In this document: positions 2,192-16,483 of the stretch, one piece after another
Position numbering within the stretch: position 1 is the first letter of the stretch
Layout of the letters: every line of letters starts with the position of its first letter
Origin: a virus
DNA: 20,970 nucleotides
IMG/VR virus record: IMGVR_UViG_3300003886_000363
Span: 1 to 20,970 of that record
Strand: one strand, 5' to 3'
Made by a program: the position numbers and the translations under genes
Notes under the pieces: generated by a model
What the model was told of the DNA's origin: nothing
The model's input: the letters and a program-made list of their open reading frames with translations, nothing else
The model's database searches: none

Positions 2192-2638
2192 ATGAGCCAA
2201 GCCAAAGCGATTCATGTATCAAAACGAACACTGGCCGGTGTCGCTGCCATTGCGCTGGTTGCCATCCTGGCTTACCGCGCGCCGGAGATCATCTTGGCGG
2301 CCAGGGGCACTGTAGCCCCTGTCGACGCGCCTGCCCCGACGGTTTCTATCGCGTCAACGGTCGAAGGCGATAGAGAGCGACAACAGCTTGCAGCGTATTG
2401 CGAGGCATGGTCGCAGGCGATGCCGCAGGTGGAAGACTTAGGTCAATTCCGCGCGGCGAGTAAGTCTGCGGATAGGGCGTTGCAAGAATCGAGCAAGCTA
2501 CCGGACCTTGCGGAGTTTGGCGAGGCCCTTCAAGCCCGAATCGAAACCGCGATTGGCGGCGAGCTTGATCCGTCACGCACTGATTTGCAGCCGATCGCCG
2601 ATGAGCTACTTCGCGTGGCAGAGGAGTTGCGAGAGTAA
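2192..2638 (+). CDS. Membrane-anchored helical protein of unknown function
   Basis: This 148-residue protein has a TAGGAG ribosome site about 9 nt before the ATG. Residues about 13-36 form one membrane anchor after a short basic N-terminus, predicting N-in topology. The rest is a polar, Ala/Glu-rich, probably helical domain outside the membrane. It sits directly before the papain-like peptidase, with the TAA and the next ATG sharing one base (TAATG). An inner-membrane spanin or a partner of the peptidase would fit this architecture and position, but no motif proves either. Confidence 0.6.
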   Translation: MSQAKAIHVSKRTLAGVAAIALVAILAYRAPEIILAARGTVAPVDAPAPTVSIASTVEGDRERQQLAAYCEAWSQAMPQVEDLGQFRAASKSADRALQESSKLPDLAEFGEALQARIETAIGGELDPSRTDLQPIADELLRVAEELRE

Positions 2639-3660
2639 TGTCCGGCCCAAAATTCCAATCATGGCAGCAGCCCGAAACCAGTTCGATTGCGGATATTATT
2701 CGCCAGTACGAACGTGGTTATCGGGGCTGCAAGTACGACCAAGAAGGATCGGAGCGGCTGGCGTCCTACGGCGCTGCTTGCGCTGAGGATGCTCTATCCA
2801 GCCTCGGATACCAGGATTCCGCTAAAGGCCAGTTGGTTATTCCATTCATCCACGTCGAAAAGGCCTATCCGCTGGCTTACCCAGGGCCAGGGCAGCAGCG
2901 CGGTAGTTGTGTTTCTCATTGCATGCGGAACGCGGCATTGATTACGATGGCCGGCGAGGTGGTGTCTGGCCTCCCCGATCCAATCAGCGGCAAACAGGAA
3001 GAGTTCCCCGAAGTCTCGCAAGTCGCCGAGAAGGCTGGCGTGCTGGCGATCGAGCCATCTTACCACCACCGCAATCATAGCGGAGACGGTTGGTGGTGCG
3101 AATCTTGTGCTGACGTGATGGTTCGCAAGACAGGTGCCGTTTTGAGGCAGGATTATGGCTTTGCGAATCTCGAAAAGCTCGACCCAGACTACGCCGGAAA
3201 ATTCTGGAAAGAATCACAAATACCGAAAGAGGTGCGAGACGCCTTTGACAACAACCGATTTTCCGACGCATCGAAAGTGACCGACCCCGGCGCAATCCGG
3301 GACTTGCTCGCACACGGCATCGGCATCGGTTCGTGTGGCAGCGAAGGATTTTCTAACGTCCGCGACGAAAACGGCGTCAGTAATCGCAAGGGCAACTGGG
3401 CTCACGCAATGGACATAATCGGTTCGGATGATCGACCAATCATCCACCGGAAATACGGTGAAATGCTTAAATTGCTTCAAAACTCTTGGGGCAAATGGAA
3501 TTCTGGACCTCGCCGGATATTGGGGACGGAAATCGACATCCCCGAAGGTTGCTTCTGGGTGCGATGGAGTGACATCAAGAGGCGTTCTTTCGTCGCGCTC
3601 GCCGGTCTCAATGGATGGGAACGAAAACTACTGCCAGATTTATCGAGAGGTTTTGTATGA
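2638..3660 (+). CDS. Papain-like (C1-type) cysteine peptidase
   Basis: This 340-residue protein carries the papain catalytic layout. QQRGSC (Gln86/87, Cys91) supplies the oxyanion Gln and the nucleophile, NWAHAMDIIG supplies His256, and LLQNSWGKW supplies Asn282 in the classic NSWG-x-W context. There is no signal peptide, so the product should stay in the cytoplasm or virion unless a holin releases it. No classical muralytic domain appears elsewhere in the window, so this peptidase occupies the endolysin position. A protein-cutting lysin would make sense if the host wall or surface layer is largely protein. That is inference; roles in virion maturation, host takeover or peptide cross-link cleavage remain open. 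The ATGA overlap with the next gene indicates one operon. Confidence 0.78.
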   Translation: MSGPKFQSWQQPETSSIADIIRQYERGYRGCKYDQEGSERLASYGAACAEDALSSLGYQDSAKGQLVIPFIHVEKAYPLAYPGPGQQRGSCVSHCMRNAALITMAGEVVSGLPDPISGKQEEFPEVSQVAEKAGVLAIEPSYHHRNHSGDGWWCESCADVMVRKTGAVLRQDYGFANLEKLDPDYAGKFWKESQIPKEVRDAFDNNRFSDASKVTDPGAIRDLLAHGIGIGSCGSEGFSNVRDENGVSNRKGNWAHAMDIIGSDDRPIIHRKYGEMLKLLQNSWGKWNSGPRRILGTEIDIPEGCFWVRWSDIKRRSFVALAGLNGWERKLLPDLSRGFV

Positions 3661-4433
3661 TGCGATTTCCATGGCCCTATGCCCTATCCGTTGCCGCTTC
3701 GATTACGATCGTCGCTTTTCTGCTTTCGCTTACAGGCTGTTCTAGTTCGCAGCCAACGCAAGATGACTACATGCCGGAGATTGCCGTTGCGATTGGTTTA
3801 TCGTCCGTACAGAAAACAGACGCACCAATTACGCCTTCCGATGAATGCGGCAACTGCGGTGGCACTGGCGTACTGGGTGACGGCACGATCGAAATGCCGT
3901 GCGGAGAATGTGGCGGCGACGGCATTTTGTCGGTCGCTGAATGCGATGACGGAATTTGCATACGGGCACCGGAAGAAAAAACCACCGAAGCCGAGGCGGA
4001 CGTTGCCGAGGATTTTATCTTGCCGACCGACGAAACTGCAAACGACGAATTGCCTGCAATCGTCGAGCCCATTGAGTCGGTCGAGCCTCCCAGCAGCGAC
4101 GTACCGCCTGCTTCGGTGGACAAACCTAAATGGATTCGCCAGACAACTATCCCGAAACAAGGCTTAGTCGTCGTGCATTACATGTTCGATGGATGCAAGC
4201 CGTGCGAGCGGATGGAAGAGAATGTGTTATCTGCGGATAGCGCAAAAGAGGCTTTGCGTGCGTTTGATTCGTGCATTGAATGGGACGTTCGCAAAAAGAG
4301 CGTTCCGGGTGTCGATTTTGTTCCAGCCGAGGCTATTTTCCTGGACGGCAAGCGTGTGTCTTTCGCCAGGGGATTCCCAACCGCCAGTGGCTATACTACG
4401 TGGCTTTCGCGCCACAATACAAAACGAAAGTAG
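3657..4433 (+). CDS. Lipoprotein with DnaJ-type CxxCGG motifs and a thioredoxin-like domain
   Basis: From ATG 3657 (ATGA overlap with the peptidase; CGAGAGG upstream) the product has 258 residues. Residues 1-28 are a lipoprotein signal ending in the lipobox LTGC with Cys28. Next come two DnaJ zinc-finger-like half repeats, CGNCGGTG (Cys64, 67) and CGECGGDG (Cys82, 85), half the usual four. An acidic Pro/Glu-rich linker (about 100-160) leads to a thioredoxin-like domain with VVVHYMFDGCKPCERM, active-site Cys180-Lys-Pro-Cys183. It should be membrane-tethered on the outside and may act in disulfide exchange or folding, perhaps on the Cys-rich proteins of this operon. The in-frame ATG at 3615 is rejected because it lies within the peptidase gene. 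Confidence 0.75.
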   Translation: MMRFPWPYALSVAASITIVAFLLSLTGCSSSQPTQDDYMPEIAVAIGLSSVQKTDAPITPSDECGNCGGTGVLGDGTIEMPCGECGGDGILSVAECDDGICIRAPEEKTTEAEADVAEDFILPTDETANDELPAIVEPIESVEPPSSDVPPASVDKPKWIRQTTIPKQGLVVVHYMFDGCKPCERMEENVLSADSAKEALRAFDSCIEWDVRKKSVPGVDFVPAEAIFLDGKRVSFARGFPTASGYTTWLSRHNTKRK

Positions 4434-4788: not shown

Positions 4789-4842
4789 CCGCTGCTGGGC
4801 CGTGGGTTTGGACGCCCATTGCAAACGGCCCAGCGGTTTTTT
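4789..4842 (+). terminator. Intrinsic terminator-like hairpin ahead of the holin gene
   Basis: CTGGGCCG (4795-4802) pairs with CGGCCCAG (4826-4833). The stem is extended by CCG (4789-4791) with CGG (4834-4836) across a 3-nt bulge, and by TTT/AAA inside. Six Ts follow (4837-4842). The T-run runs straight into the AAGG ribosome site of the gene at 4855, so the hairpin may also control holin expression. Confidence 0.65.
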
Positions 4843-4854
4843 AAGGTCGGAAAA

Positions 4855-5181
4855 ATGTCGTCGCTAAAATCAATCACGCTTTTGGTCGCAACCTTTGTAG
4901 TTGTCCCTTCAGAATATATTTCTGATTTAGTCGGGATGTGCTTGGCTTTGCTTGGTGGAGCAGCAGCACAGATGCCCCAGATGGGGAAGCTGCCAGCCTT
5001 AGAGATTGCGGGCGAATTACTTGCTTCGGCTCTCGCCGGCTTTGTCGTCCACGCTGCTGCCTTGTCTTTTGAAAGCCCGCCAACGCAACGCATTGTTTTT
5101 GCTTCTTGCATTTGCGGGGGTTACTGCGGTGCTGAAACACTTCGGTACTTTTCTAAGGGGTTCCGCCGTGATAAAGACTGA
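4855..5181 (+). CDS. Probable holin
   Basis: From ATG 4855 (TAAGG about 8 nt upstream; an in-frame TTG at 4819 would start inside the terminator hairpin) the product has 108 residues. Three hydrophobic segments are visible at about 7-38, 48-72 and 79-93, and the tail is short and charged (KGFRRDKD). Small size, several membrane spans, a charged C-terminus and position in the late region are typical of phage holins (LydA-like type), which form membrane lesions that release cytoplasmic lysis enzymes. Holins share little sequence, so the call rests on architecture. Its last 14 nt overlap the PAS gene. Confidence 0.62.
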   Translation: MSSLKSITLLVATFVVVPSEYISDLVGMCLALLGGAAAQMPQMGKLPALEIAGELLASALAGFVVHAAALSFESPPTQRIVFASCICGGYCGAETLRYFSKGFRRDKD

Positions 5182-5611
5182 GCGACTACACCCGATATTG
5201 GTTTGGGTTGCGATCATATCGATCGTCGTCTTCGTGCCGGGCATGGCCGAGTCTTACTACACGTCGCACAAGGGCAAGCAGGACCGCAACAGACTGGTTC
5301 GGGCACTCACACAAACGCACATTGCTACGGTAGTTGCCGATGAGAAGATGGACATAATCCACCGCAACCCGAAGGCCGATGAGATTTTCGGCGTGTCCCT
5401 AGCGGGGAAGCGAATATGCGACCTAGTGCCGGAAGGGCATGGGGACGTTCACGCCGAGGGTGTCGAGCGATGGAAAGAAAAGGGTGGAGTTAGGGCAGAG
5501 CCAATCCATTGCAAAATAACCCTACCCGACGGAACAGAGCGCGACGTACAAATAGCCTTGTGGTCAACGCATTGCAATGGCGAAGTGATTTTTGTAGCGG
5601 AGATAAAGTAG
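5168..5611 (+). CDS. Membrane-anchored PAS-domain protein
   Basis: The start is GTG 5168, with AAGGGG 8 nt upstream; the longer frame from 5006 would lie inside the holin gene. The 147-residue product has one membrane span (about 9-25), a basic juxtamembrane stretch (HKGKQDRNR), then a PAS fold filling about residues 42-147. Visible PAS signatures are IATVVADEKMDIIHRNPKA, DEIFG, GKRICDLVPEGHGDVHAEG, and the late strand pair TLPDGTERDVQIAL. PAS domains sense redox state, oxygen, light or small ligands. There is no kinase, cyclase or other output domain, so the output must be through a partner. The 14-nt overlap with the holin gene suggests translational coupling and a holin-modulating role, which is inference. 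Confidence 0.75.
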   Translation: MIKTERLHPILVWVAIISIVVFVPGMAESYYTSHKGKQDRNRLVRALTQTHIATVVADEKMDIIHRNPKADEIFGVSLAGKRICDLVPEGHGDVHAEGVERWKEKGGVRAEPIHCKITLPDGTERDVQIALWSTHCNGEVIFVAEIK

Positions 5612-5612
5612 C

Positions 5613-8294
5613 ATGACACTAGCAGAAAAAAACGAGCTTCTACTCCTGAACTTATCGATGGACGAAACGTCGGGAGTCTTAGTTTCCGATTCGTCGACAA
5701 ACCGAAACGATGGGACAATGACGCCCGGTAACTTGCCGAGCGTAACCGGTGCAGATGGAAAACTTGGCCTGCGATTCAACGGCACGGACGAATACATTAA
5801 TATGGTGTTGCCCCCCGTGCCGGAAGATATTACCGCACTGACCATACTGGTCGATTTCAAGTTCGACGGTGGACCAGGAACTCGCCGAGTCATTCTTGAA
5901 ACCTCAGATAACTTTTCCCTGAGCATAGAGATAGGCACTGACCAAGACTTGAACGGAAGTTTTCGCCGGACTGGGGATGACTGCACCTTTAACGGCCCGG
6001 TCTTGGTTCAGGGCCAGCGATATAAAGTAGCGTTCGTCTATAATGGTCGGAGAATACGCGTTTATGTCGACGGTGTTTACGTCGGAAGGTCCAACGAAGG
6101 CGGTGGTGATTTGGAGTCGATGAACGGCTTGCATGTTGGCACTTTTCGCTCGGCAAATAACCGCTGGTTCGACGGCGTGATCTACGAAGTACAAATATAT
6201 CACAGCGAACTTACCGACAACGAGCTTGCCGAATACAGCGCTGGAAGCAGGAATGCCACGCTTGTCGACTACGCCATAGTCGGGGCAGCAACAAAAACAG
6301 GTGCAGTAGTCGCAGCAAAAACCAAAGTGATTTTGCCGACAAAGCTAGCCGTTTACGCCAACGAATCTCTGATTCTAGAGACAGCCGAAGTAACGCCAGA
6401 CGCTAATAATCGCGTCAAAATACCGATCACCGGCCTCGATCCGAACAAGAGATATACTGCAAGGATCATGCAGGGCGACCTAATCGACGTGCATAATGAC
6501 GTTGTATTTCGGACGCACCCCGAAGGGAACGCGAGCTTTACTTTCGCCACTTCTTCTTGTGCTTCCGGTGCGGATTTCCCCAATACAACTTCGACTTCTG
6601 ACCACCCGGTTTTTACGCACATTGCGAAAGCGGATCCGCTTTTCTTTGTCCACACGGGTGACCTGCATTACTTCGATATCGCGGTAAATAATATCTTGCT
6701 TTTCCTTGCGGCTTTTGATTCTGTAATGTCGAGCCGTAATCAGCGTGGCCTGTTTTCCATTTTGAGCTTGCTCTACATGTGGAGCGACCACGACTACGGT
6801 CCGAACAATTCTAATTCGTCTTCACCCTCCCGCCCTGCCGCTATTCAATCGTACCGCGACCTAGTACCTCACTTGCCTCTGCCAGACAGCGAGGGGATTT
6901 ACACAGACCAAATTATTGGCCGAGTTCATTTTATCTACACCGACGAACGGGCATATCGAGACACTTCTGCGGCTACAATTCTCGGCACGGTTCAGAAGCA
7001 ATGGCTCAAAGACACAATGTTAAACTCTTCGGCAGAGTTGTTTATCGTTTTCGTAGGCGTGCCGTGGATTGCACCATCAAACTTCAGCGACACGTGGGGC
7101 GGGATTGCAAACGCCGAGCGAACGGAGCTGGCAGACTTTTTCCAAGAGAATGGTTTCAATGGTAAGCTGCTTTTGGTGCATGGCGATGACCATGCTAGTG
7201 CTTATGACGACGGCACAAATAGCAATTACGCAACGAGCCCCGAAGGTAAAGGGCCGGCAGTGCTCTTGGCATCGTCTCTCGATTCCGCACCGATCATTGC
7301 GACCTACAGCGGGCCGTACAGCTCAGGAGCGAAGACGCTAGGACCCGGTCAATATAGCTTGGTTGGAATTCGAGACGACGGGGACAAAATAACAGTCACC
7401 TGCACCGGAGTTAAATTCGACGGCGTGACAGAATCGCAGACTTTTCAGCACAGCTTTTCCGTTGCGACAGAAGCCGACGTGGTGAGCGGCATTGTTGCCG
7501 ACCCTAACTTTGCGACTTTGTTTGCTGATTCGGCAGCGGCGAAGGTAATTGTCGACGACTGGACCCAAGGCGGGCGGCTGGATTTGATCGTTGATGAAGT
7601 GCTGGCTGATACTGCCGTGATGCCGGCAGCGGTTGACGCAGCTATTGCAAACAGGCTGGACGGTGTTGACCTAACGCAAGTAATCGCAGACGCAATAGCA
7701 ACCGATTGGGTGGCTGGCGATGCTTCCCCGATGGCAGTGGCCGCAGCTCTGGTAGCCAATCCGACGTTCGCCACGCTCGTTGCTGATGCGGCTGCTACTA
7801 AGGTGACCACAGACAAGCTCGACCCGCTGATTGAGCCGGGGGCTCCTGCGTTTACTGCGGTGGCTTTGGAGGGGGCTCCTACTGGGGGTGGAGGCAGTAC
7901 GGAAGGACTGGCAGAAGAAATTGTTGCGGCTATTGTTGCGGGCGAAACATTCATTCCAAACAACATGCACGTCTGGCAGTTAGCCCGCAGCACTACAGGA
8001 GTGATCGTGCGAGACAGCTTTGTAATCAAGAAAGCACCATCCGAAAAGCTTTTATGTTACGTCGACTTTTCTGCACTACTTGGCAAAGGCGAGGAGGTGA
8101 GCGAGATTTTATCGTTAGACGCATCCGGGGGAACAGTATCTGAAGTAGTTGCCAGCCGAGGGATACTTGGGAGGTTCGTCTTCGTCGAGCTCGAAGCAGG
8201 CGACGTCGGCGACAGGGCGATGGTTGATGTCATTGTTAAAACAACGCGGACGCAAGAGCTTGCCGCAACTGCGATGGCCCTCGACGTTGTCTGA
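5613..8294 (+). CDS. LamG / PhoD-like phosphoesterase / Ig-like fusion, putative enzymatic spike or fibre
   Basis: This is an 893-residue protein. Residues about 1-210 look like a LamG/concanavalin-type jelly roll (DETSGVLVSDSSTNRNDG, LRFNGTDEYI, VYVDGVYVG, FDGVIYEVQIY). A beta-rich FN3-like segment (about 210-300) precedes a PhoD-like metallophosphoesterase (about 300-605) with HTGDLHYFD (Asp350, His352), WSDHDYGPNNS (Asp392, His393, Asp394) and VHGDDHAS (Asp525/526, His527). Thus the metal-site motifs seem intact. Residues 622-745 contain two Ala/Asp-rich repeats. The last about 90 residues (FVIKKAPSEKLLCYVDFSALLGKGEEV onward, in parts) resemble the Ig-like domain found at the ends of phage fibre proteins. 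There is no signal peptide, consistent with virion assembly rather than secretion. It may bind surface glycans and cleave phosphate esters or phosphodiesters on the host surface. Confidence 0.72.
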   Translation: MTLAEKNELLLLNLSMDETSGVLVSDSSTNRNDGTMTPGNLPSVTGADGKLGLRFNGTDEYINMVLPPVPEDITALTILVDFKFDGGPGTRRVILETSDNFSLSIEIGTDQDLNGSFRRTGDDCTFNGPVLVQGQRYKVAFVYNGRRIRVYVDGVYVGRSNEGGGDLESMNGLHVGTFRSANNRWFDGVIYEVQIYHSELTDNELAEYSAGSRNATLVDYAIVGAATKTGAVVAAKTKVILPTKLAVYANESLILETAEVTPDANNRVKIPITGLDPNKRYTARIMQGDLIDVHNDVVFRTHPEGNASFTFATSSCASGADFPNTTSTSDHPVFTHIAKADPLFFVHTGDLHYFDIAVNNILLFLAAFDSVMSSRNQRGLFSILSLLYMWSDHDYGPNNSNSSSPSRPAAIQSYRDLVPHLPLPDSEGIYTDQIIGRVHFIYTDERAYRDTSAATILGTVQKQWLKDTMLNSSAELFIVFVGVPWIAPSNFSDTWGGIANAERTELADFFQENGFNGKLLLVHGDDHASAYDDGTNSNYATSPEGKGPAVLLASSLDSAPIIATYSGPYSSGAKTLGPGQYSLVGIRDDGDKITVTCTGVKFDGVTESQTFQHSFSVATEADVVSGIVADPNFATLFADSAAAKVIVDDWTQGGRLDLIVDEVLADTAVMPAAVDAAIANRLDGVDLTQVIADAIATDWVAGDASPMAVAAALVANPTFATLVADAAATKVTTDKLDPLIEPGAPAFTAVALEGAPTGGGGSTEGLAEEIVAAIVAGETFIPNNMHVWQLARSTTGVIVRDSFVIKKAPSEKLLCYVDFSALLGKGEEVSEILSLDASGGTVSEVVASRGILGRFVFVELEAGDVGDRAMVDVIVKTTRTQELAATAMALDVV

Positions 8295-8483
8295 TGGCGT
8301 TGATTATAGGCGATAAAAAAACTGCCTTTTTTTGAGTTGAAAAATCGGATTTTTTAGGGCGAAAAAACGGGGGTCGGTCGGGTCCTTTGAGGCACCCCCT
8401 GGCCCCTGGTTCGCGTTATTACCCGAACACTTTTTGCAGATAAGAATGAAAAAACAGCCTCTCACCTATGATTATTGGGATGA
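8295..8483. other. Intergenic region before the terminase genes; possible cos/packaging region
   Basis: This gap contains a weak terminator-like hairpin (8308-8333), an AT palindrome AAAAATC-G-GATTTTT (8340-8354), and a G/C-rich inverted repeat GGGGGT (8369-8374) with ACCCCC (8394-8399). A TATGAT at 8467-8472 could be a -10 element, but no good -35 lies 17 nt upstream. In lambda-type phages with GpA-family terminases, cos lies just upstream of the small terminase gene, so this is where it would be expected. No cos consensus can be recognised by eye. Confidence 0.35.
8308..8333 (+). terminator. Weak terminator after the spike gene
   Basis: AGGCG (8308-8312) pairs with TGCCT (8323-8327, one G-T pair) and is followed by a run of seven Ts (8327-8333). 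The stem is short and A-rich in the loop, so efficiency would be low. Confidence 0.4.
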
Positions 8484-9095
8484 ATGAAACCAAAACGCAA
8501 GGAACCGAAACAGACGCAGCTCGACGGGTCGTGTGCTCGCGTGCTGGCACTTCGCCCCCAGGTGTTTGACCGGGTGTCGATCAAAGCTTTGGTTGGCGAT
8601 CGAGTTGTCGCTTCGATGCCGCTGGTTGGTCAGGAATTCGGAGTTAGTGCTATCACGATCCGGCAGGGTTGGAAGGCCAACGGGATGCCAGGCGGCGACG
8701 GCAAGTACCGGCTGGTTGATATTTTAATTTGGCGAATGGAGCACAACAAGAAAAACGAGAAGTACACGAAGAGTCGCAGTGAAGGAAGCAGCAGGCTGAA
8801 AGAGATTGAGCTAGAGCGGGCGGAAGTTGCACTGGCTGCCGCCAAGTCGAATTACGAAGAGTCGGGCGGCCAGTTGGTTGCACGCGACCAAGTCAAGTCC
8901 GAGGTCAGTGCGATGCTCGCCGTGTTCAGCAAGACGCTACTGGACATACCAAGGTCTTTGACACCTTTGCTGCCGGAGAAATTTGTTTCTGCCGTGATAC
9001 CAGAACTCGAAAAACTGATTCGCCACGCACTCAAGGCATTGTCTGAAAAGTCACACCAAACCTATTTGAAAGAAGGAAAAAACGATGAGCTGTAG
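8484..9095 (+). CDS. Terminase small subunit (Nu1-like DNA-packaging protein)
   Basis: This is a 203-residue protein. Residues about 48-90 form a winged helix-turn-helix typical of Nu1-type subunits (VGQEFGVSAITIRQGW, then a Gly-rich turn and YRLVDILIWRMEH). A basic linker and a long helical segment (SSRLKEIELERAEVALAAAK) follow, the usual coiled region that mediates oligomerisation and contact with the large subunit. The C-terminal part matches the conserved helical end of this family (DIPRSLTPLLPEK). The small subunit recognises the packaging site on the phage genome. Position directly before the large terminase, with one orphan between, supports the call. It overlaps the next gene by 11 nt. 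Confidence 0.82.
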   Translation: MKPKRKEPKQTQLDGSCARVLALRPQVFDRVSIKALVGDRVVASMPLVGQEFGVSAITIRQGWKANGMPGGDGKYRLVDILIWRMEHNKKNEKYTKSRSEGSSRLKEIELERAEVALAAAKSNYEESGGQLVARDQVKSEVSAMLAVFSKTLLDIPRSLTPLLPEKFVSAVIPELEKLIRHALKALSEKSHQTYLKEGKNDEL

Positions 9096-9504
9096 CAAGA
9101 TATCGATTGCTGTTGGAGAGTCGGAGAAGCAAGTCAGTGTGTCCTTCTCCACTTCTGGATGTAACGATCAGTCACTTGAAGTTTCGATTGGCCCGGGCGT
9201 GACGCAAGAACTTGTCGCAATAATCAATCCGGATTTATTGCGGGCTTTGTTTGCGGTGTCCAGTGGCAATGCTCGTATTTCCTTTGGCGAAAAGTCCGTC
9301 GCTGTGATGCCGCGGATTCCGCTGTTCTGGTACGACGGAATAGGCACGCTTGCCGAAGATGCTATTTGTTCTGAGATTTGTTCGCTCAGTGTGTTTAATC
9401 CTGGCGATGAGTCCATTCTGTTTTCACTTCGCGCTTCGCATGTCTTTCCGGAAACGCCCGAAAGCAATTCGGAAGAGGAAGAAATCGAAAGCGAACCGGC
9501 CTAG
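9085..9504 (+). CDS. Hypothetical protein between the terminase genes
   Basis: This 139-residue protein has AAGGAAAA upstream and its start lies inside the end of the small terminase gene. The stop TAG shares its G with the GTG start of the large terminase, so the three genes are translationally coupled. It seems beta-rich (ISIAVGESEKQVSVSFSTSG, SLSVFNPGDESILFSLRAS), with a segment MPRIPLFWYDGIG in the middle and a very acidic tail (SEEEEIESEP). No family was recognised. Placement suggests a packaging accessory factor. Confidence 0.6.
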   Translation: MSCSKISIAVGESEKQVSVSFSTSGCNDQSLEVSIGPGVTQELVAIINPDLLRALFAVSSGNARISFGEKSVAVMPRIPLFWYDGIGTLAEDAICSEICSLSVFNPGDESILFSLRASHVFPETPESNSEEEEIESEPA

Positions 9505-11510
9505 TGGCCTTGTTGGGATACCAGCCTTCGGCCCTGTCGCATGACGTTCTGTCAGCCCTGAGTCCTCCAGGAAACGTCAGGACGTGGGATTGGATTTGCG
9601 AGAACGGAAGGATGCCGAACGGAAATCCGTTTGACGGCGATCGCGTCCCGTGGCTGGAGGGTGTGTGCGACGCTTATGACGATCCAGAGACTAGGACGGT
9701 TTCGCTTATGTGGGGCACTCGGCTTGGAAAAACGATCGGCGCTTTGCAAATCATGGCGTGCATGATGGCGACCGCTCCTATGCCAGGGCTGTTTACGTCC
9801 AGCACCCAGGGCCTGGTCAAGCGAACCGTCCGCAATAAAATCTATCCGATTCTACGCGCTGTCAGCGAGACTGCGTCACAGCTACCGTGTGAGCGATTGC
9901 AATCTTGGGAGCGAATCGCACTATCTAAATCGACGTGGAGTGTTGCGTGGTCGGGTTCGTCGACAACACTGGCCGACGTGGATGCGTTTTACGGACACGC
10001 AAACGAAATCGACAAGTTTGATTTCACGGAGCAGATGGGCGGCGAGGTGGGCGAAGGCGATCCGCTCGATCAATGGGACGAGCGATTCAAAGAGTACCCT
10101 GATTCCAAGCAAATCTATGAGTGCTCCCCGACCACGAAGCTACGCTCTCGCATCTACAAGAAACTTCAGCGCTCGAACAATTGTAGGTTCTGGGTGCCGT
10201 GCCCTGATTGCAAAAATCGGCAGGTGCTAAAGCTTGGCTCGGGTGATCCTAAGTCGGGCGGGCTTCTGTTTGACAAAACCACGGAAGGCACTCTGGACCT
10301 GGAGACTGCGAGATCGACTTCTCGTTACGTGTGTGAGCACTGTCGTAGGGAAATTTACGACGAGCACCGGTTCGCCATGATGCGAGCAGGCAAGTGGGCA
10401 CCGGAGGGTTGTTCAGTAAATCGGCGAGGCCGGCTTGTCGGCACGCCCGTTCGTCCTTCGCGTCACTGGGGCGGAAAGCTTTCGTCGCTTTACTCTTTGC
10501 AGCTTCGGTGGGGCGACATTGGCGCCAAGTTTGTCGAGGCCCAGGGCAATCGCCGTTCGCTCCAGATGTTCATCAACGGCTGGCTGGCGGACGTATGGGA
10601 GCCGTACCGCAGCAAGAGCGAACCGGAGAAAGTTGGCGAGCGTCTTGTAACGGACGTCGAGCCCGGAGTCATCCCTGAATGGGCGACCTGGGTCTTCAAT
10701 GGCGTTGACGTTCAAGAAGAGTGCTTGGTTTACGCGACGATCGCCGTGGGGCCTGGTGAGCGTATCGCGATTCTTGAAAAGGGAGTCCTTGATTCTTGGG
10801 AAGAGCTCAAGCAGGAAGTCATCAAGAGGAAGTTCGAGCACGAGGATGGTGGGGTTCCGCTCAGTGCAGCACTCACATTGATCGATAGTGCGCATCGAAC
10901 CAAAGAAGTCTACGATTTCTGCAAATCATTCAGAGGCAGCGGACATGTCGTGATGCCATGCAAGGGGGCTAACAACGACTGCAATGGCGAGGCCTACCAG
11001 AAGATCATTATCGGCGAGGGAACAAAGACAGGGTCCAAGGCGATGAAGCGATTGGCGCTGGAGGCACGCGGTTTGGTTCGCGTTCGAGTCAACCCGTTTC
11101 ACTACGAACCAATCATCCAACGTCAGATCGATCAGTTGTGCCCAGAAGATGACGGGTCGCTGAGCATTCCCGCCGGGTATGATGAAGATGAAAACTTCCT
11201 GTACCAACTCTGCAATGCTGCTATGTCGGCCGAGCCAAGCAAGGCAGAACCCGACAAGCACCTGTGGGTGAAGCGATGGGAGAATCGCGAAAATGATATT
11301 CGTGATTGCCTGAAATACGCTCGTTGCGCAGCAGACCTGAAGTTTCGCGGTGACTGGAACAAGGCGAATCGAAGGCAGGGGACGGTCGCGACGGTCGCAC
11401 CAAAAGCCGCCAAGGTCAGCGGATCCAGTGCCGGGGCTGGCGATCGAAAATCACGACGGACATCATTGCGGAAAAGAATGCAGCGACGCAGATCAGCACG
11501 GAGGTCGTAA
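9504..11510 (+). CDS. Terminase large subunit, GpA family
   Basis: This is a 668-residue protein starting at GTG 9504. The ATPase has a Walker A GTRLGKT (Gly71-Thr77) and a Walker B-like HANEIDKFD with the probable catalytic Glu168, followed by GEGDPLDQW and the YECSPTT coupling motif. A four-Cys insert typical of GpA proteins is present (CPDC 233-236, CEHC 277-280). The C-terminal nuclease domain shows FNGVDVQ (Asp402) and LTLIDSAHRTKEV (Asp461), expected metal ligands. A Lys/Arg-rich tail ends the protein. It translocates DNA into the prohead and cuts concatemers, in complex with the small subunit and portal. Length is close to that of lambda gpA. Confidence 0.93.
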   Translation: MALLGYQPSALSHDVLSALSPPGNVRTWDWICENGRMPNGNPFDGDRVPWLEGVCDAYDDPETRTVSLMWGTRLGKTIGALQIMACMMATAPMPGLFTSSTQGLVKRTVRNKIYPILRAVSETASQLPCERLQSWERIALSKSTWSVAWSGSSTTLADVDAFYGHANEIDKFDFTEQMGGEVGEGDPLDQWDERFKEYPDSKQIYECSPTTKLRSRIYKKLQRSNNCRFWVPCPDCKNRQVLKLGSGDPKSGGLLFDKTTEGTLDLETARSTSRYVCEHCRREIYDEHRFAMMRAGKWAPEGCSVNRRGRLVGTPVRPSRHWGGKLSSLYSLQLRWGDIGAKFVEAQGNRRSLQMFINGWLADVWEPYRSKSEPEKVGERLVTDVEPGVIPEWATWVFNGVDVQEECLVYATIAVGPGERIAILEKGVLDSWEELKQEVIKRKFEHEDGGVPLSAALTLIDSAHRTKEVYDFCKSFRGSGHVVMPCKGANNDCNGEAYQKIIIGEGTKTGSKAMKRLALEARGLVRVRVNPFHYEPIIQRQIDQLCPEDDGSLSIPAGYDEDENFLYQLCNAAMSAEPSKAEPDKHLWVKRWENRENDIRDCLKYARCAADLKFRGDWNKANRRQGTVATVAPKAAKVSGSSAGAGDRKSRRTSLRKRMQRRRSARRS

Positions 11511-11795: not shown

Positions 11796-12038
11796 ATGGC
11801 GAAAACAAAGATCACTGCCGACTTCGCATACACACCCGCAGAGCAACTGGCCATGTGGAACCAGGCGAGCATGGAGCTTGCGAGGTCGGGCGTGTCCCGA
11901 TCGGTTCATGGCCGAACGCTGACCGTCGCCAACGGCGCTGAAGTCCGTGAGATGATTAACCACTGGCAAGCCAAGGTGTCAATTTCGCAAGCGAGACCAG
12001 GTTCCAGAACAAACATCGCGAGGCACGCGAGGCGATAA
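11796..12038 (+). CDS. gpW-like head-tail joining protein
   Basis: This 80-residue protein has the gpW pattern: an N-terminal helix (TPAEQLAMWNQASMELARSG), a two-strand hairpin of the form VHGRTLTVANGAE, then a second helix (VREMINHWQAKVSISQA). gpW plugs the portal after DNA packaging so that tails can attach. In lambda the gene lies between the large terminase and portal genes, exactly as here. Its stop and the portal start share one base (TAATG). The ribosome site is weak (TTAGGG very near the ATG). Confidence 0.75.
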   Translation: MAKTKITADFAYTPAEQLAMWNQASMELARSGVSRSVHGRTLTVANGAEVREMINHWQAKVSISQARPGSRTNIARHARR

Positions 12039-13753
12039 TGGCGAGCAAAACCAAAAATCGAAACCGCCATAGCCGTCGATCGGGAGGCCGGTTGTCGCGT
12101 GCGGGCCATGCGATTCGAGGAGCGATTTCCAATTCCCTCGAAGCAACGATCGGAATCATATCGCCGGCTCGGGCGCTGCACAGGCAGCACCTAATCAAGC
12201 TCTCCGAGTACCTCGACAAACGACACGAAAACCGGATGAGCCGACTGGAGAGCGGAGAGTCGCTTTCTAGCGTTCATGCCAGTGGAAGTGGCGGATTCAA
12301 TTCTGCTCGAAACACACCGGATGCGCATAGCTGGCTCACGAGCCGGCTTTCCATCGACGCGGCCCTGGAGTACGACCTGGAGGAAATGCGATTCCGGTCT
12401 GACTCGGCTTATAAAAACTACGAACTGGCTCGCGCTCACGTCGAGCGACGAACGCAACGGGTGGTTGGTTGTGGCATCGGCATTCGCCCTGCTGTTCGCA
12501 AGTTGAAGGGCGTGCTGACCAAGTCCCAGGCAAAGGCGATCAACCGACAACTCAACGAGCACCTGGAAAGAATCCTGCCACGGATCGGGCATCACGGCGA
12601 GCCGTTTCATGTGATCCAGCGGTTGGTCCAGCGACACTGGGAGAAGGATGGCGAAGCGTTTGTTTTGTTCGGAGACAAGCCGGATGCGATGTCGCCCATC
12701 ACGCTCAAGATCGAAGTGATCCACCCGCAGCGAGTGATGACACCGCCGAACCAGAGCACCAACCCACTTGTGCGAATGGGTGTTGTCTACAACAGGCGTG
12801 GCGATGTGGTTGGTTATTTTGTTCGGTCCGTACATCCAGGCGACAACAAAATCTTCGTCGAGAAGTTCGACTTCATCCCGTCGAAATTCCAGAACGGCTT
12901 GCCGAGGATGTTGCATCTTTACGACAAGCTGGAGGCAGGCCAGTCGCGAGGATATCCGCATTTGCAAGTTGCCTTGCGCCGGCTGAAAAACTCCGAGGAA
13001 TACGAAGATGCAGAGATGGAGCGCAACCTAGTCGCTGCTTGTCACGCTGCATTTGTTACCACGGAAGCCAGCCCCGACCAGTTGGCCGAGTTGTACGGAA
13101 CAGAGTCGGACGCAGTCACCGGCCGTCGGTACGAAGATATCGAACCGGCCATGATTAAATACCTGAGCCCTCTGGAAAAAGTGGAGTTCAACAATCCCCC
13201 TGGCCCGCAGGGGAATTTTGTGCCGTACATCGAGCACCAAGGTCGCATGGCGGCTTCCGGCGTTGGATCGTCCTACGAAATGATGTCGGGAAACTGGAAG
13301 GGCCTGTCTTATTCGGCGGCCAAAGCAATCTGGAATGACGAGCAAATACCAATTGACTGCCGGCGCAAAGATTTGATCTCGTCGCTGTTGGTTCCAACTT
13401 ACCAGCATGTCGTGACTCGATGCGTGACAGGTCTTGATCTGGTCGGGATCGATCCGGTGTTCTACCGATCGGAGCCTTGGCATTTTTGGCGAGCCCGGTT
13501 TGTCGCACCGAAGAAATACTTACTCGATCCACAGCGTGAAGGCGCTGCGGATGAACGTGACGTTGCGAATGTTTTTGCTGTGGCATCGGACATTGTTGAG
13601 CAGGGCACCGGCGAAGACCGAAAAGATCGAGCAAGCCGTGGCATTGCTAACCCCGAGCCCCGAATGAGTGGCGGGACGAAGCTAGGCGATGAAAATCCCG
13701 AAGCCGCGGACCCCAACGCCGAGAGCGAGAAAGAGCTACAGGCCGCCGGATGA
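12038..13753 (+). CDS. Portal protein, lambda family
   Basis: This 571-residue protein matches lambda-type portals. The visible hallmarks are AYKNYELARAHVERRTQRVVGCGIGI near residue 125-150 (in parts), GVVYNRRGDVVGYFV in the middle, YPHLQVALRRLKNSEEYEDAE, and GVGSSYEMMSGNW followed by LSYSAAKAIWNDE, the region where family members read YSSxRA. The dodecameric portal is the DNA channel at one capsid vertex and binds the terminase and head-tail joiners. The N-terminus is basic and longer than the core needs. Its stop overlaps the protease start (ATGA). Confidence 0.92.
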   Translation: MASKTKNRNRHSRRSGGRLSRAGHAIRGAISNSLEATIGIISPARALHRQHLIKLSEYLDKRHENRMSRLESGESLSSVHASGSGGFNSARNTPDAHSWLTSRLSIDAALEYDLEEMRFRSDSAYKNYELARAHVERRTQRVVGCGIGIRPAVRKLKGVLTKSQAKAINRQLNEHLERILPRIGHHGEPFHVIQRLVQRHWEKDGEAFVLFGDKPDAMSPITLKIEVIHPQRVMTPPNQSTNPLVRMGVVYNRRGDVVGYFVRSVHPGDNKIFVEKFDFIPSKFQNGLPRMLHLYDKLEAGQSRGYPHLQVALRRLKNSEEYEDAEMERNLVAACHAAFVTTEASPDQLAELYGTESDAVTGRRYEDIEPAMIKYLSPLEKVEFNNPPGPQGNFVPYIEHQGRMAASGVGSSYEMMSGNWKGLSYSAAKAIWNDEQIPIDCRRKDLISSLLVPTYQHVVTRCVTGLDLVGIDPVFYRSEPWHFWRARFVAPKKYLLDPQREGAADERDVANVFAVASDIVEQGTGEDRKDRASRGIANPEPRMSGGTKLGDENPEAADPNAESEKELQAAG

Positions 13754-14979
13754 CTTCGATATCGACATTGCCGACAAGTGACTACCAGCACCTGCAAACG
13801 GTCGTTGGTTTGTCGCAGAATTCTCGAATAGACCGGGATCGCCACATTATATTTGGCGTTTCCATTTTGCAAAAAGGCGACCTCAATGACGACCGGCCTT
13901 GGATGATCGATAACGTGTCGATCAAACAAGTGGTTGATCTGGCAAAGTCTACCCCAAAAGGCCTGAAGTCTCGATTTACTCATCCCAACATGAGCAACGA
14001 CGGTCTTGGGAAGTTTATCGGAAGGCTTCGTAAACCTCGCGTGAGCCAAAGCGGCAACGATGCCTTGGCCGACTTGCACATGGCTCCGATCGCATTCAAG
14101 TCGTCAATCGAAGGAATGCAGCAGTCGATTGGTGATTACGTGCTGGACCTGGCCGAAAACGAACCTGATGTCTTTGGGATTTCCCTTGCGCCGAAGCTCG
14201 ACGAAGCAGCCATGGGGAAGCTTGAGAAATCCGGAAGTCGAACGCCGATGCGATTCCTGAAGCATCACGCAGGCGACGTGGTTGACCAACGAGCAGCGAC
14301 ACGCGGCGGTCTTTTCGGGGGCGTTGATTTGTCCATCGGGACGGCACCGCGGCTCGCGTCCGAATCACTTGACAAGCTATTTGCCGACGCTGACGAAATA
14401 GTTATCCGCCAACGAGTCGGTTCGTTTCTGAACACCTATTTGGAAAATCGTTTCCAACAAACTCCTGAAAAAACAAAGGAGGCTGAAATGCCCGAGTTGA
14501 CCATGAAGGACGTAACGGACGCGATTGACACCAGCAACAAATCCTTGCTGAGTGGCATCGACGACACAATCGCGAAGGCTATCCAAGGTGCTCTGACGGA
14601 CCCTGAGTCGGGTAAAAAGGAGGTCCCCAGTGATCTTTCCGATCAATTGCTGTCGCAGCAGAAAGAGGCGCAGGGCCTGACGGCACTCGCACAGTTGTGC
14701 GGACTGTCGAACAGCGATGAGCTTTTGACAGACTGGCTCGGCAAGCTAAGCGCTGGGTTCACGGTCGTCGACGCTAAGGCGCAACTTGGCGAGCTTGCCA
14801 TTAAGCATAACACGCTAACCGACGGCGATCCTACGCCGGACGACGGAGGTCTCGATCGAAAGCTGAGCGCTGCGTACGACGAACACACGAATCTCCACAA
14901 GGGCCTGGGCTTTACCAAGAAGGAATGGATCGCGTCCGCGAAGAAAGAGCTTTTGCGTCAAGCCGAGGACGCCGCGTAG
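13750..14979 (+). CDS. Capsid maturation protease fused to scaffold
   Basis: This is a 409-residue protein. The first about 240 residues look like a prohead serine protease: a beta-rich start (RDRHIIFGVSIL), KSRFTHPNMS with His78 as candidate catalytic His, ALADLHM (His110), and DVFGISLAP with Ser145 as candidate nucleophile. Residues 247-409 are polar, helical and Lys/Glu-rich, as scaffolds are. The arrangement is that of lambda gpC with nested Nu3: the full-length protein supplies the protease, and an internal start (14488) makes free scaffold. The four-base overlap with the portal gene suggests coupled translation. Confidence 0.82.
   Translation: MTSISTLPTSDYQHLQTVVGLSQNSRIDRDRHIIFGVSILQKGDLNDDRPWMIDNVSIKQVVDLAKSTPKGLKSRFTHPNMSNDGLGKFIGRLRKPRVSQSGNDALADLHMAPIAFKSSIEGMQQSIGDYVLDLAENEPDVFGISLAPKLDEAAMGKLEKSGSRTPMRFLKHHAGDVVDQRAATRGGLFGGVDLSIGTAPRLASESLDKLFADADEIVIRQRVGSFLNTYLENRFQQTPEKTKEAEMPELTMKDVTDAIDTSNKSLLSGIDDTIAKAIQGALTDPESGKKEVPSDLSDQLLSQQKEAQGLTALAQLCGLSNSDELLTDWLGKLSAGFTVVDAKAQLGELAIKHNTLTDGDPTPDDGGLDRKLSAAYDEHTNLHKGLGFTKKEWIASAKKELLRQAEDAA
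14475..14490 (+). promoter_or_regulatory. Internal Shine-Dalgarno and start codon for the nested scaffold
   Basis: AAAGGAGG (14475-14482) lies 5 nt before ATG 14488-14490, in the same frame as the protease. It is among the strongest ribosome sites in the window although it lies inside a coding region, which argues for a deliberate internal start. Confidence 0.75.
14488..14979 (+). CDS. Nested scaffold protein (in-frame internal start)
   Basis: Starting at Met247 of the protease-scaffold gene, this product would have 163 residues (beginning MPELTMKDVTDAIDTSNKS). It is helical and rich in charged residues, ending KKEWIASAKKELLRQAEDAA, where a basic helical end would bind the capsid protein. 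Lambda Nu3 is made the same way from within gene C. A separate start allows many scaffold copies per protease copy. Confidence 0.7.
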   Translation: MPELTMKDVTDAIDTSNKSLLSGIDDTIAKAIQGALTDPESGKKEVPSDLSDQLLSQQKEAQGLTALAQLCGLSNSDELLTDWLGKLSAGFTVVDAKAQLGELAIKHNTLTDGDPTPDDGGLDRKLSAAYDEHTNLHKGLGFTKKEWIASAKKELLRQAEDAA

Positions 14980-15002
14980 TCCTTGCTGGAGAAAAGTAAA
15001 AC

Positions 15003-15023
15003 CTAGATCGCAACTGCATCTAG
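15003..15023 (+). other. Small hairpin between scaffold and decoration genes
   Basis: CTAGAT (15003-15008) pairs with ATCTAG (15018-15023) around a 9-nt loop, in the 80-nt gap before the decoration gene. There is no T-run, so it is not an intrinsic terminator. It may be an RNA processing or stability element that sets the level of the abundant downstream capsid mRNAs. Confidence 0.3.
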
Positions 15024-15059
15024 CACGTTCATAAAACTCAAAACCGAGAGGTACTAAAA

Positions 15060-15464
15060 GTGGCTACTACTCAAAACCAATTGATCAATCGTGGCGATCG
15101 AGACCGGGCGGCCGTTCCCGTTCTCGCTGGTGCCGTAATCCCAACGGGCACGCTGTTTTTTGTCACAGCAGCCGGCTTTGCAACGAACGCGGCCACTGGC
15201 AATGTGCTAGGCGGCCTGGCTGTCCGAGGCGGGGACAACGCCTCCGGAGCCAGCGGAGACGTAACCGTCGAAGGCTGGCGAGCGGGGCAGTTTGTTCTGC
15301 CAGGCACAGGGTTCTCTCAAGCATCGGTTGGTGACAAAGTTTTCGCTGTCGACAATTACGCACTGACAACCACCGCCGGCTCGAACATCTACGCCGGAAA
15401 AGTAACCGAATTCGTTTCGGCCACCGAGGTCAAGTTCGATCTGGACGCACTGGCAGATGCCTAA
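15060..15464 (+). CDS. Head decoration / capsid cement protein
   Basis: This 134-residue protein starts at GTG 15060 (GAGAGGTAC upstream). It is rich in Ala, Gly, Thr and Val with a repeating beta-strand pattern (AVIPTGTLFFVTAAGF, GNVLGGLAVRGGDNASG, DVTVEGWRAGQFVLPG, VGDKVFAVDNYAL). This is like capsid cement proteins (DUF2190 type). It sits between scaffold and major capsid genes, where lambda has gpD. Such proteins bind the expanded capsid and stabilise it against DNA pressure. Confidence 0.7.
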   Translation: MATTQNQLINRGDRDRAAVPVLAGAVIPTGTLFFVTAAGFATNAATGNVLGGLAVRGGDNASGASGDVTVEGWRAGQFVLPGTGFSQASVGDKVFAVDNYALTTTAGSNIYAGKVTEFVSATEVKFDLDALADA

Positions 15465-15547
15465 GTTCGTCCGGGAGTTGTCGCACTAACACGTTGCGTT
15501 GAATCGCACTGCATTCCAAATCCACAAAGAACAAAGAGGTAACTACA

Positions 15548-16483
15548 ATGAGTCTCCAAACTGCTGCCTACCAAGCCGTGCAGCGCGATTTGACGTACAT
15601 GTTCGAGGACGCTGCCGAAGCGGCCACGCCCTATCACCCAGAACTGGCGATGATGATCCCAAGCACTTCGGCCGACGAGAAGTACGGCTGGCTTGGTGCA
15701 TCGCCTGGGATGCGAGAGTGGCTCGGGGCGCGCGAATTCAAGCAATTGCGAGCCGCAGACTACACGCTCAAAAACAAGCACTGGGAATCGTCCGAAGAGT
15801 TCGAGAAGAACGACGTTGATGATGACCGAGTCGGCGGATTCAAAACGCGAATTGGCAATCTTGCCGATGAGGCGGCCTATCATCCAGACGAATTGCTGTT
15901 TGACATCGCAAACGCTGGCAACACATTGCCTTGTTTTGACGGTCAATTCTTTTTCGACACGGATCACTTATGGGGTGATTCCGGCGTGCAGTCGAACGAC
16001 CTGTCGTTTGCCTCCGGTTCGCCCACATCCCCCACCCCAGCGGAATTCAAGGATTCGTTTCACGCTGCCTTGATCAATATGCTTGGCCTTAAAAACGACC
16101 AAGGCAAGTATTACATCCGACCTCGCGTCGGAAAGCTCGGCAGTCTGGTTTGTACTGTGCCTTTGAATATGTACGAGGCAGCAGCCAAGGCGTTTGAGCA
16201 AGTCGTGGTGGTTGAGGGCGGTGCGGGTGTTAGTAACTTCAGTCTGGAGCGACCAAAAATTGTTCCGGTCCAGTACATGCCTCAAGGGGCAAGCTGGAAC
16301 CTGTACTACACCGGCGGCCGACTCAAGCCGTTTATCTTCCAGGCCAGACAGCCGTTGTCGTTTGCCATGAAGGGCGCTGACGACATTGAGTTCAAAACGC
16401 TCAAGGCGATGACCGAAGCCCGATACAACATCGGCTTTGGTGCTTGGTTTGCCGCGGCGCGGAGCACGTTCACCGCAGGATAA
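15548..16483 (+). CDS. Major capsid protein, Mu gpT family
   Basis: This 311-residue protein matches the Mu-like gpT major head subunit. The characteristic run is YGWLGASPGMREWLGAREF (46-64), YTLKNKHWE (72-80), the acidic NDVDDDRVGGF (88-98), HPDELLFDIANAG (112-124), and CFDGQFFFDTDH (129-140). These follow the family pattern that I recall closely. The ribosome site is AAAGAGGTAAC. The protein builds the icosahedral shell, probably with an HK97 fold. A strong terminator follows 15 nt after the stop. Confidence 0.92.
   Translation: MSLQTAAYQAVQRDLTYMFEDAAEAATPYHPELAMMIPSTSADEKYGWLGASPGMREWLGAREFKQLRAADYTLKNKHWESSEEFEKNDVDDDRVGGFKTRIGNLADEAAYHPDELLFDIANAGNTLPCFDGQFFFDTDHLWGDSGVQSNDLSFASGSPTSPTPAEFKDSFHAALINMLGLKNDQGKYYIRPRVGKLGSLVCTVPLNMYEAAAKAFEQVVVVEGGAGVSNFSLERPKIVPVQYMPQGASWNLYYTGGRLKPFIFQARQPLSFAMKGADDIEFKTLKAMTEARYNIGFGAWFAAARSTFTAG

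Follow-up and report, generated by a model that had tools for sequence, protein, structure and literature searches.

A LamG-PhoD fusion encoded just upstream of phage terminase genes is a probable virion fiber protein

Introduction

PhoD of Bacillus subtilis (structure 2YEQ, family PF09423) is an enzyme secreted with a signal peptide. Its metals are one Fe3+ and two Ca2+ ions, and it is inactivated by the substitutions C180A, D265A, N271A, N272A, and D436A and nearly inactivated by D207A and D266A (PMC4223295). Genes of the same enzyme family occur in soil phages, where they have been read as a means of phosphate acquisition: phage phoD is placed among phosphorus-acquisition genes in a 2024 study, in which one phage enzyme, PhoD22, was active in vitro (PMC10987575). 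In the announcement of Microbacterium phage Rowlf, the function in a phage of a purple-acid-phosphatase-like gene was called unknown (PMC12352085).

Other cultured phages also carry homologs. ORF22 of Thermobifida phage P1312, annotated as a phosphodiesterase (phrog_24476), directly follows tape measure and tail protein genes. The P1312 study predicted that ORF22 has a signal peptide and is secreted; in LC-MS/MS of purified virions its coverage entry is blank, and the same holds for several tail proteins of P1312 (PMC4569894). Dolichospermum phage Dfl-JY23, Nostoc phage YongM, and Anabaena phage Elbi encode PhoD homologs annotated as "alkaline phosphatase D" or "phosphatase," and a gene annotated "capsid fiber protein" comes next in two of these three cyanophages. 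Tail-associated lysins of enterococcal phages, directed at teichoic acid and other wall polymers, embody the concept of a tail enzyme that targets such a polymer (PMC10194240). A literature search returned no paper presenting phage PhoD as a tail enzyme; the family has been published mainly as a metabolic gene.

Here we analyze a viral record of 20,970 bases, referred to throughout as the window, that encodes a PhoD-type enzyme fused to a LamG domain.

Results and Discussion

Domain structure of the protein

A reading frame check of the window indicated an uninterrupted ORF of 893 codons that begins with ATG (Table 1). The sequence-only reading of this DNA had proposed a single protein with a jelly-roll-like N terminus, a PhoD enzyme, and an Ig-like fiber C terminus, and the first two domains and the single frame were borne out. 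Near the N terminus, the Pfam family LamG_3 (PF13385) was matched over nearly the full length of the profile (E value, 1.8e-14; 54.6 bits against a cutoff of 27.6), and the jelly roll around the match probably spans residues ~10 to 212. The AlphaFold model, built with 53 sequences, was of low confidence in this part because no relatives covered it; the support for LamG is the profile match. The PhoD family PF09423 was matched by residues 319 to 540 (E value, 1.5e-10; 41.2 bits against a cutoff of 27), and residues 211 to 620 were modeled mostly with pLDDT above 90. A fold search with the model returned B. subtilis PhoD as the top solved structure (2YEQ; Z score, 35.4 over 380 residues at 2.6 A, model residues 215 to 618), followed by plant purple acid phosphatases. 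As the 2YEQ alignment begins at residue 215, it includes the Ig-like N-terminal domain of PhoD.

Table 1. Features of the LamG-PhoD protein and of its surroundings, in window coordinates
Feature	Coordinates	Strand	Evidence
Holin-like gene upstream of the 893-aa ORF	4819..5181	+	phrog_6384 (E 6e-05), phrog_785
LamG-PhoD fiber-type protein, 893 aa	5613..8294	+	ORF; Pfam and PHROG matches
LamG (concanavalin A-like) domain, aa 58-205	5784..6227	+	Pfam PF13385; PHROG matches to virion structural and tail proteins
Ig-like PhoD N-terminal domain, aa ~213-305	6249..6527	+	AlphaFold pLDDT >90; 2YEQ alignment from aa 215
PhoD/purple-acid-phosphatase-fold catalytic domain, aa ~306-620	6528..7472	+	PF09423; 2YEQ structural match
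GDLHY metal motif (D350, Y353), aa 349-353	6657..6671	+	D350 and Y353 invariant in 53 viral relatives
WSDHDYGPNN metal motif; S391 for calcium-ligand Asp, N398/N399 kept	6780..6809	+	Alignment to 2YEQ; PMC4223295
GDDH metal motif (D525, H527), aa 524-527	7182..7193	+	D525 and H527 invariant in viral relatives
Stalk/linker, helical, low complexity, aa ~621-799	7473..8009	+	Sequence; low-confidence model
C-terminal beta-sandwich, possible fiber-tail adaptor (Gp77-like, weak)	8010..8291	+	Subthreshold PF23148; low-confidence models
Terminase small subunit (terS), marks the gene slot	8484..9095	+	phrog_57 (E 5e-16)
Terminase large subunit (terL)	9504..11510	+	phrog_15 (E 7e-94)
Portal, head protease-like, decoration, and major head protein genes	12038..16483	+	phrog_21, phrog_1731, phrog_371; synteny with viral contig L104

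Downstream of the enzyme, residues 621 to 799 were predicted to be partly helical with low model confidence, and one linker segment, KVTTDKLD...FTAVALEGAPTGGGGS, recurs in otherwise unrelated viral proteins (L100, L102, and L103). Residues 800 to 893 matched the Gp77 family PF23148 below threshold (18 to 20 bits against 27; E value, 0.001 to 0.004), and both the AlphaFold and the single-sequence models of the region were beta-rich and sandwich-like at low confidence. These matches and models weakly suggest the proposed Ig-like fiber C terminus, whereas the well-supported Ig-like domain is the one at the N terminus of PhoD. A search of viral contigs with the whole protein as a single-sequence query found no close relatives, and neither the C-terminal region alone nor the N-terminal LamG region alone found relatives among phages. 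Matches of the C-terminal region in viral contigs fell mainly in the linker.

Active site

Among the viral relatives, PhoD is best conserved at its ligand residues, and D350, Y353, W390, H393, D394, D525, and H527 are invariant in all 53. Residues of the B. subtilis enzyme were related to the phage protein by sequence alignment to 2YEQ, with chain numbers converted to precursor numbers by an offset of 56 derived from the mature range, 57 to 583 (PMC4223295). Equivalents of the metal ligands are retained at C316, D350, D392, N398, N399, and D525, the assignment of N398 and N399 requiring a one-residue gap in the alignment; Y353 and H527 of the motifs are kept as well. Within WSDHDYG (residues 390 to 396), Ser391 aligns with Asp265 of B. 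subtilis PhoD, a ligand of the calcium site. The motifs GDLHY, WSDHDYG, and GDDH are thus all present as first described, but the second carries serine in place of a calcium-ligand aspartate, which qualifies the claim that the motifs are intact.

The serine could indicate a fiber in which PhoD binds but has little or no catalytic activity, the enzyme fold having been reused for receptor binding, and the motif has decayed further in the homologs of Larnav and Hortus1 (YSDND and YSDTD). We consider such a weak or dead module unlikely, as every other mapped ligand is present and no part of the domain is better conserved than the ligand residues. Moreover, position 391 is aspartate in 49 of the 53 viral relatives and serine in 4, including the 893-residue protein, and the other viral homologs with serine there retain most of the remaining ligands (L043 and L075) or all of them (L039). 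Because the other mapped ligands are kept and Ser391 occupies the D265 position, catalysis by the protein is predicted to be likely, though it is not assured.

PhoD homologs among phages

Phage enzymes of this type had been expected to be unusual, and the counts contradict that expectation. Relatives of PhoD were found by tblastn in 63 phage records, a two-pattern scan placed the subfamily in at least 77 viral contigs, and PhoD is already covered by three PHROG families, of which one is named phosphodiesterase and another hydrolase. In a phylogeny, the 893-residue protein grouped weakly (80/75) with a mostly viral cluster, on a long branch.

The fusion shares with B. subtilis PhoD the fold, the Ig-like N-terminal domain, and metal motifs of the Fe/Ca type, but it differs in having no signal peptide, in the added LamG domain and stalk, and in Ser391. 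P1312 ORF22 is 31% identical over 42% of the query, but there PhoD is N-terminal and is followed by a CBM_4_9-like domain, LamG is absent, and the host is an actinobacterium. The cyanophage homologs, which are 29 to 36% identical, also differ in having PhoD at the N terminus, another C-terminal extension, and no LamG match in Pfam. The cyanophage C termini had looked LamG-like by eye, a candidate likeness to which Pfam gave no support. We regard the LamG-PhoD architecture as a further variation on phage PhoD, itself a common, known, and functionally undescribed class.

The gene slot upstream of terS

The ATG of the LamG-PhoD ORF lies one base beyond the stop codon of the upstream ORF, and the gene lies between a holin-like gene and terS, all three on the same strand. 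The ORF between the holin-like gene and the fiber gene (5006-5611) encodes a hydrophobic segment and has weak PAS-domain matches. The right-hand part of the window is a head module with the small and large terminase subunits, portal, decoration protein, and major head protein, and the window stops short of any recognized tail module. Relatives of the terminase, sought in bacterial genomes as a clue to the host, were not found there.

The major head protein identified 80 viral relatives with up to 51% identity. PhoD was present in none of 36 records of head-gene relatives (0/36), and so direct orthology cannot test this gene; the slot upstream of terS can nevertheless be compared in those relatives whose sequence extends far enough ahead of terS. 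L138 and L141, apparently near-copies from a single lineage, encode LamG proteins just upstream of terS (profile E values, 9e-18 and 4e-13), and in L112 and L142 the position is taken by proteins with GSVTGSV repeats, which we read as fiber-like. A gene of about 120 to 140 codons separates terS from the LamG or GSVTGSV-repeat genes in these relatives. By BLAST, the LamG domain of the 893-residue protein does not resemble that of L138, and the two have only family and slot in common. Nor does the 139-residue ORF at 9085 of the window resemble the 120-residue ORF that precedes terS in L138. The slot before terS thus appears to hold fiber-like genes with exchangeable domains, a pattern that is suggestive rather than statistical at four records and about three lineages. 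Seven contigs of related phages (L114, L120, L121, L124, L128, L139, and L140) start ~60 to 100 bases from the ORF just before terL, and these starts may mark a physical genome end.

Neighbors and fusion partners of viral PhoD

An ORF survey suggested a repeated order around viral PhoD loci: a long ORF, one or two shorter ORFs, and PhoD. Sampled neighbors matched tape measure, Dit/minor tail, and virion structural families, and tail-protein, minor-tail, and tail-fiber families recur across the 53-member PhoD set. When seven tape measure proteins served as seeds for iterative phmmer searching, a tape-measure-like gene was found two to five ORFs upstream of PhoD, on the same strand, in 32 of 77 viral loci, a set that includes a few near-duplicates. 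PhoD is fused to tail-fiber families in L054 and L065, and in L030 a single frame (6806-9559), cut by the contig end, joins PhoD to a tail tubular domain of the T7 gp11 type. The homologs of Streptomyces phage Larnav and Microbacterium phage A3Wally are exceptions that lie outside tail modules.

An enzyme of the lysis or release stage, made in the cytosol beside the holin and set free at lysis to detach virions from surface polymers or debris, would suit a window that lacks recognized tail genes and in which a same-strand holin-like gene lies not far upstream. Such a role seems very improbable given that relatives fill the same slot with fiber-like genes and that homologs are found in tail modules and tail fusions.

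Export

A simple hydrophobicity heuristic detected no signal peptide in the 893-residue protein, the N terminus of which is not hydrophobic, in agreement with the sequence-only reading. The same heuristic flagged signal peptides in 3 of 76 viral PhoD homologs versus 5 of 11 bacterial relatives, and several actinobacterial relatives have long frames with evident membrane segments ahead of PhoD. Three actinobacterial long frames of the same subfamily (L089, L090, and L091) combine membrane segments with a C-terminal PhoD. An enzyme of extracellular type without an export signal fits a component of the virion.

The gene could also be an auxiliary metabolic one whose product, an alkaline phosphatase synthesized in the infected cell, frees phosphate for host and phage; the literature classes phage phoD genes in this way, and one of them was active in vitro (PMC10987575). 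PhoD enzymes act outside the cytoplasm, however, and this one has no signal peptide. Further, LamG and stalk domains answer no obvious metabolic need, the homologs belong to tail modules or have tail domains joined to them, the gene itself occupies a fiber slot, and the main text of PMC10987575 never uses the word "tail." With no signal peptide, a fused LamG domain and stalk, and a position in the fiber slot, the protein does not resemble an exported, nonstructural metabolic enzyme, and we regard a metabolic role as distinctly unlikely.

A putative fiber enzyme

The lack of an export signal, the slot upstream of terS, and the homologs within or fused to tail genes of many phages give good support to the earlier suggestion of a phage fiber carrying a PhoD enzyme. 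We conclude that the 893-residue protein is probably a virion fiber or spike protein with LamG and PhoD domains, which plausibly binds and hydrolyzes a phosphodiester surface polymer. The in vitro activity of one phage PhoD (PMC10987575) counts in favor. Points against are the blank virion coverage entry of the homologous P1312 ORF22, Ser391 at the place of an essential ligand, the subthreshold adaptor match, the lack of PhoD in the 36 head-gene relatives, a window that ends ahead of any recognized tail module, and the homologs outside tail modules. The domain content, the PhoD fold, the missing signal peptide, the fiber slot, and the tail association of homologs are computational results; we infer that the protein is incorporated into the virion and is active despite Ser391, and we likewise infer its substrate and the sequence of steps during adsorption, as follows. 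The LamG domain would probably bind a ligand and the PhoD-fold domain would probably hydrolyze phosphodiesters, both being carried on the helical stalk, the terminal beta-sandwich of which may dock to the tail. During adsorption, the fiber would bind and then cleave a phosphate-containing polymer or lipid head group of the host surface, and cleavage would clear the way to the receptor.

More broadly, we lean toward the view that many phage "phoD" genes, including this one, are genes for tail enzymes of the virion. With their PhoD/purple-acid-phosphatase fold, these enzymes would hydrolyze phosphodiester surface polymers during adsorption and would form a widespread, functionally undescribed class counted as phosphorus-acquisition genes in the virome literature. 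We offer this re-reading of the phage phoD literature as a hypothesis. Should phage PhoDs prove to be tail enzymes, tallies that treat phage phoD as a phosphorus-cycling gene would have to be re-read, and a PhoD-fold, phosphodiester-cleaving class would be added to the glycan lyases and hydrolases of tailspikes. Homologs in cultured phages (P1312, Rowlf, and the cyanophages) make the question of a tail enzyme testable.

Other genes in the window

Three further ORFs lie to the left of the holin-like gene. The product of ORF 1618-2166 is a phage-encoded protein with a lipid desaturase domain (PF10520; E value, 3.6e-40), and its likeness to plasmanylethanolamine desaturase falls under the NCBIfam cutoff. 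ORF 3615-4433 encodes a lipoprotein-like product with CxxCxG repeats resembling those of the DnaJ zinc finger and a weakly thioredoxin-like CKPC region. The 340-residue product of ORF 2638-3660 has what by eye look like the Cys, His, and Asn motifs of papain-like proteins (SCVSHC, NWAHAM, and QNSWGKWN). Pfam, NCBIfam, and PHROG gave it no significant family assignment, yet its relatives are encoded in 322 viral contig stretches.
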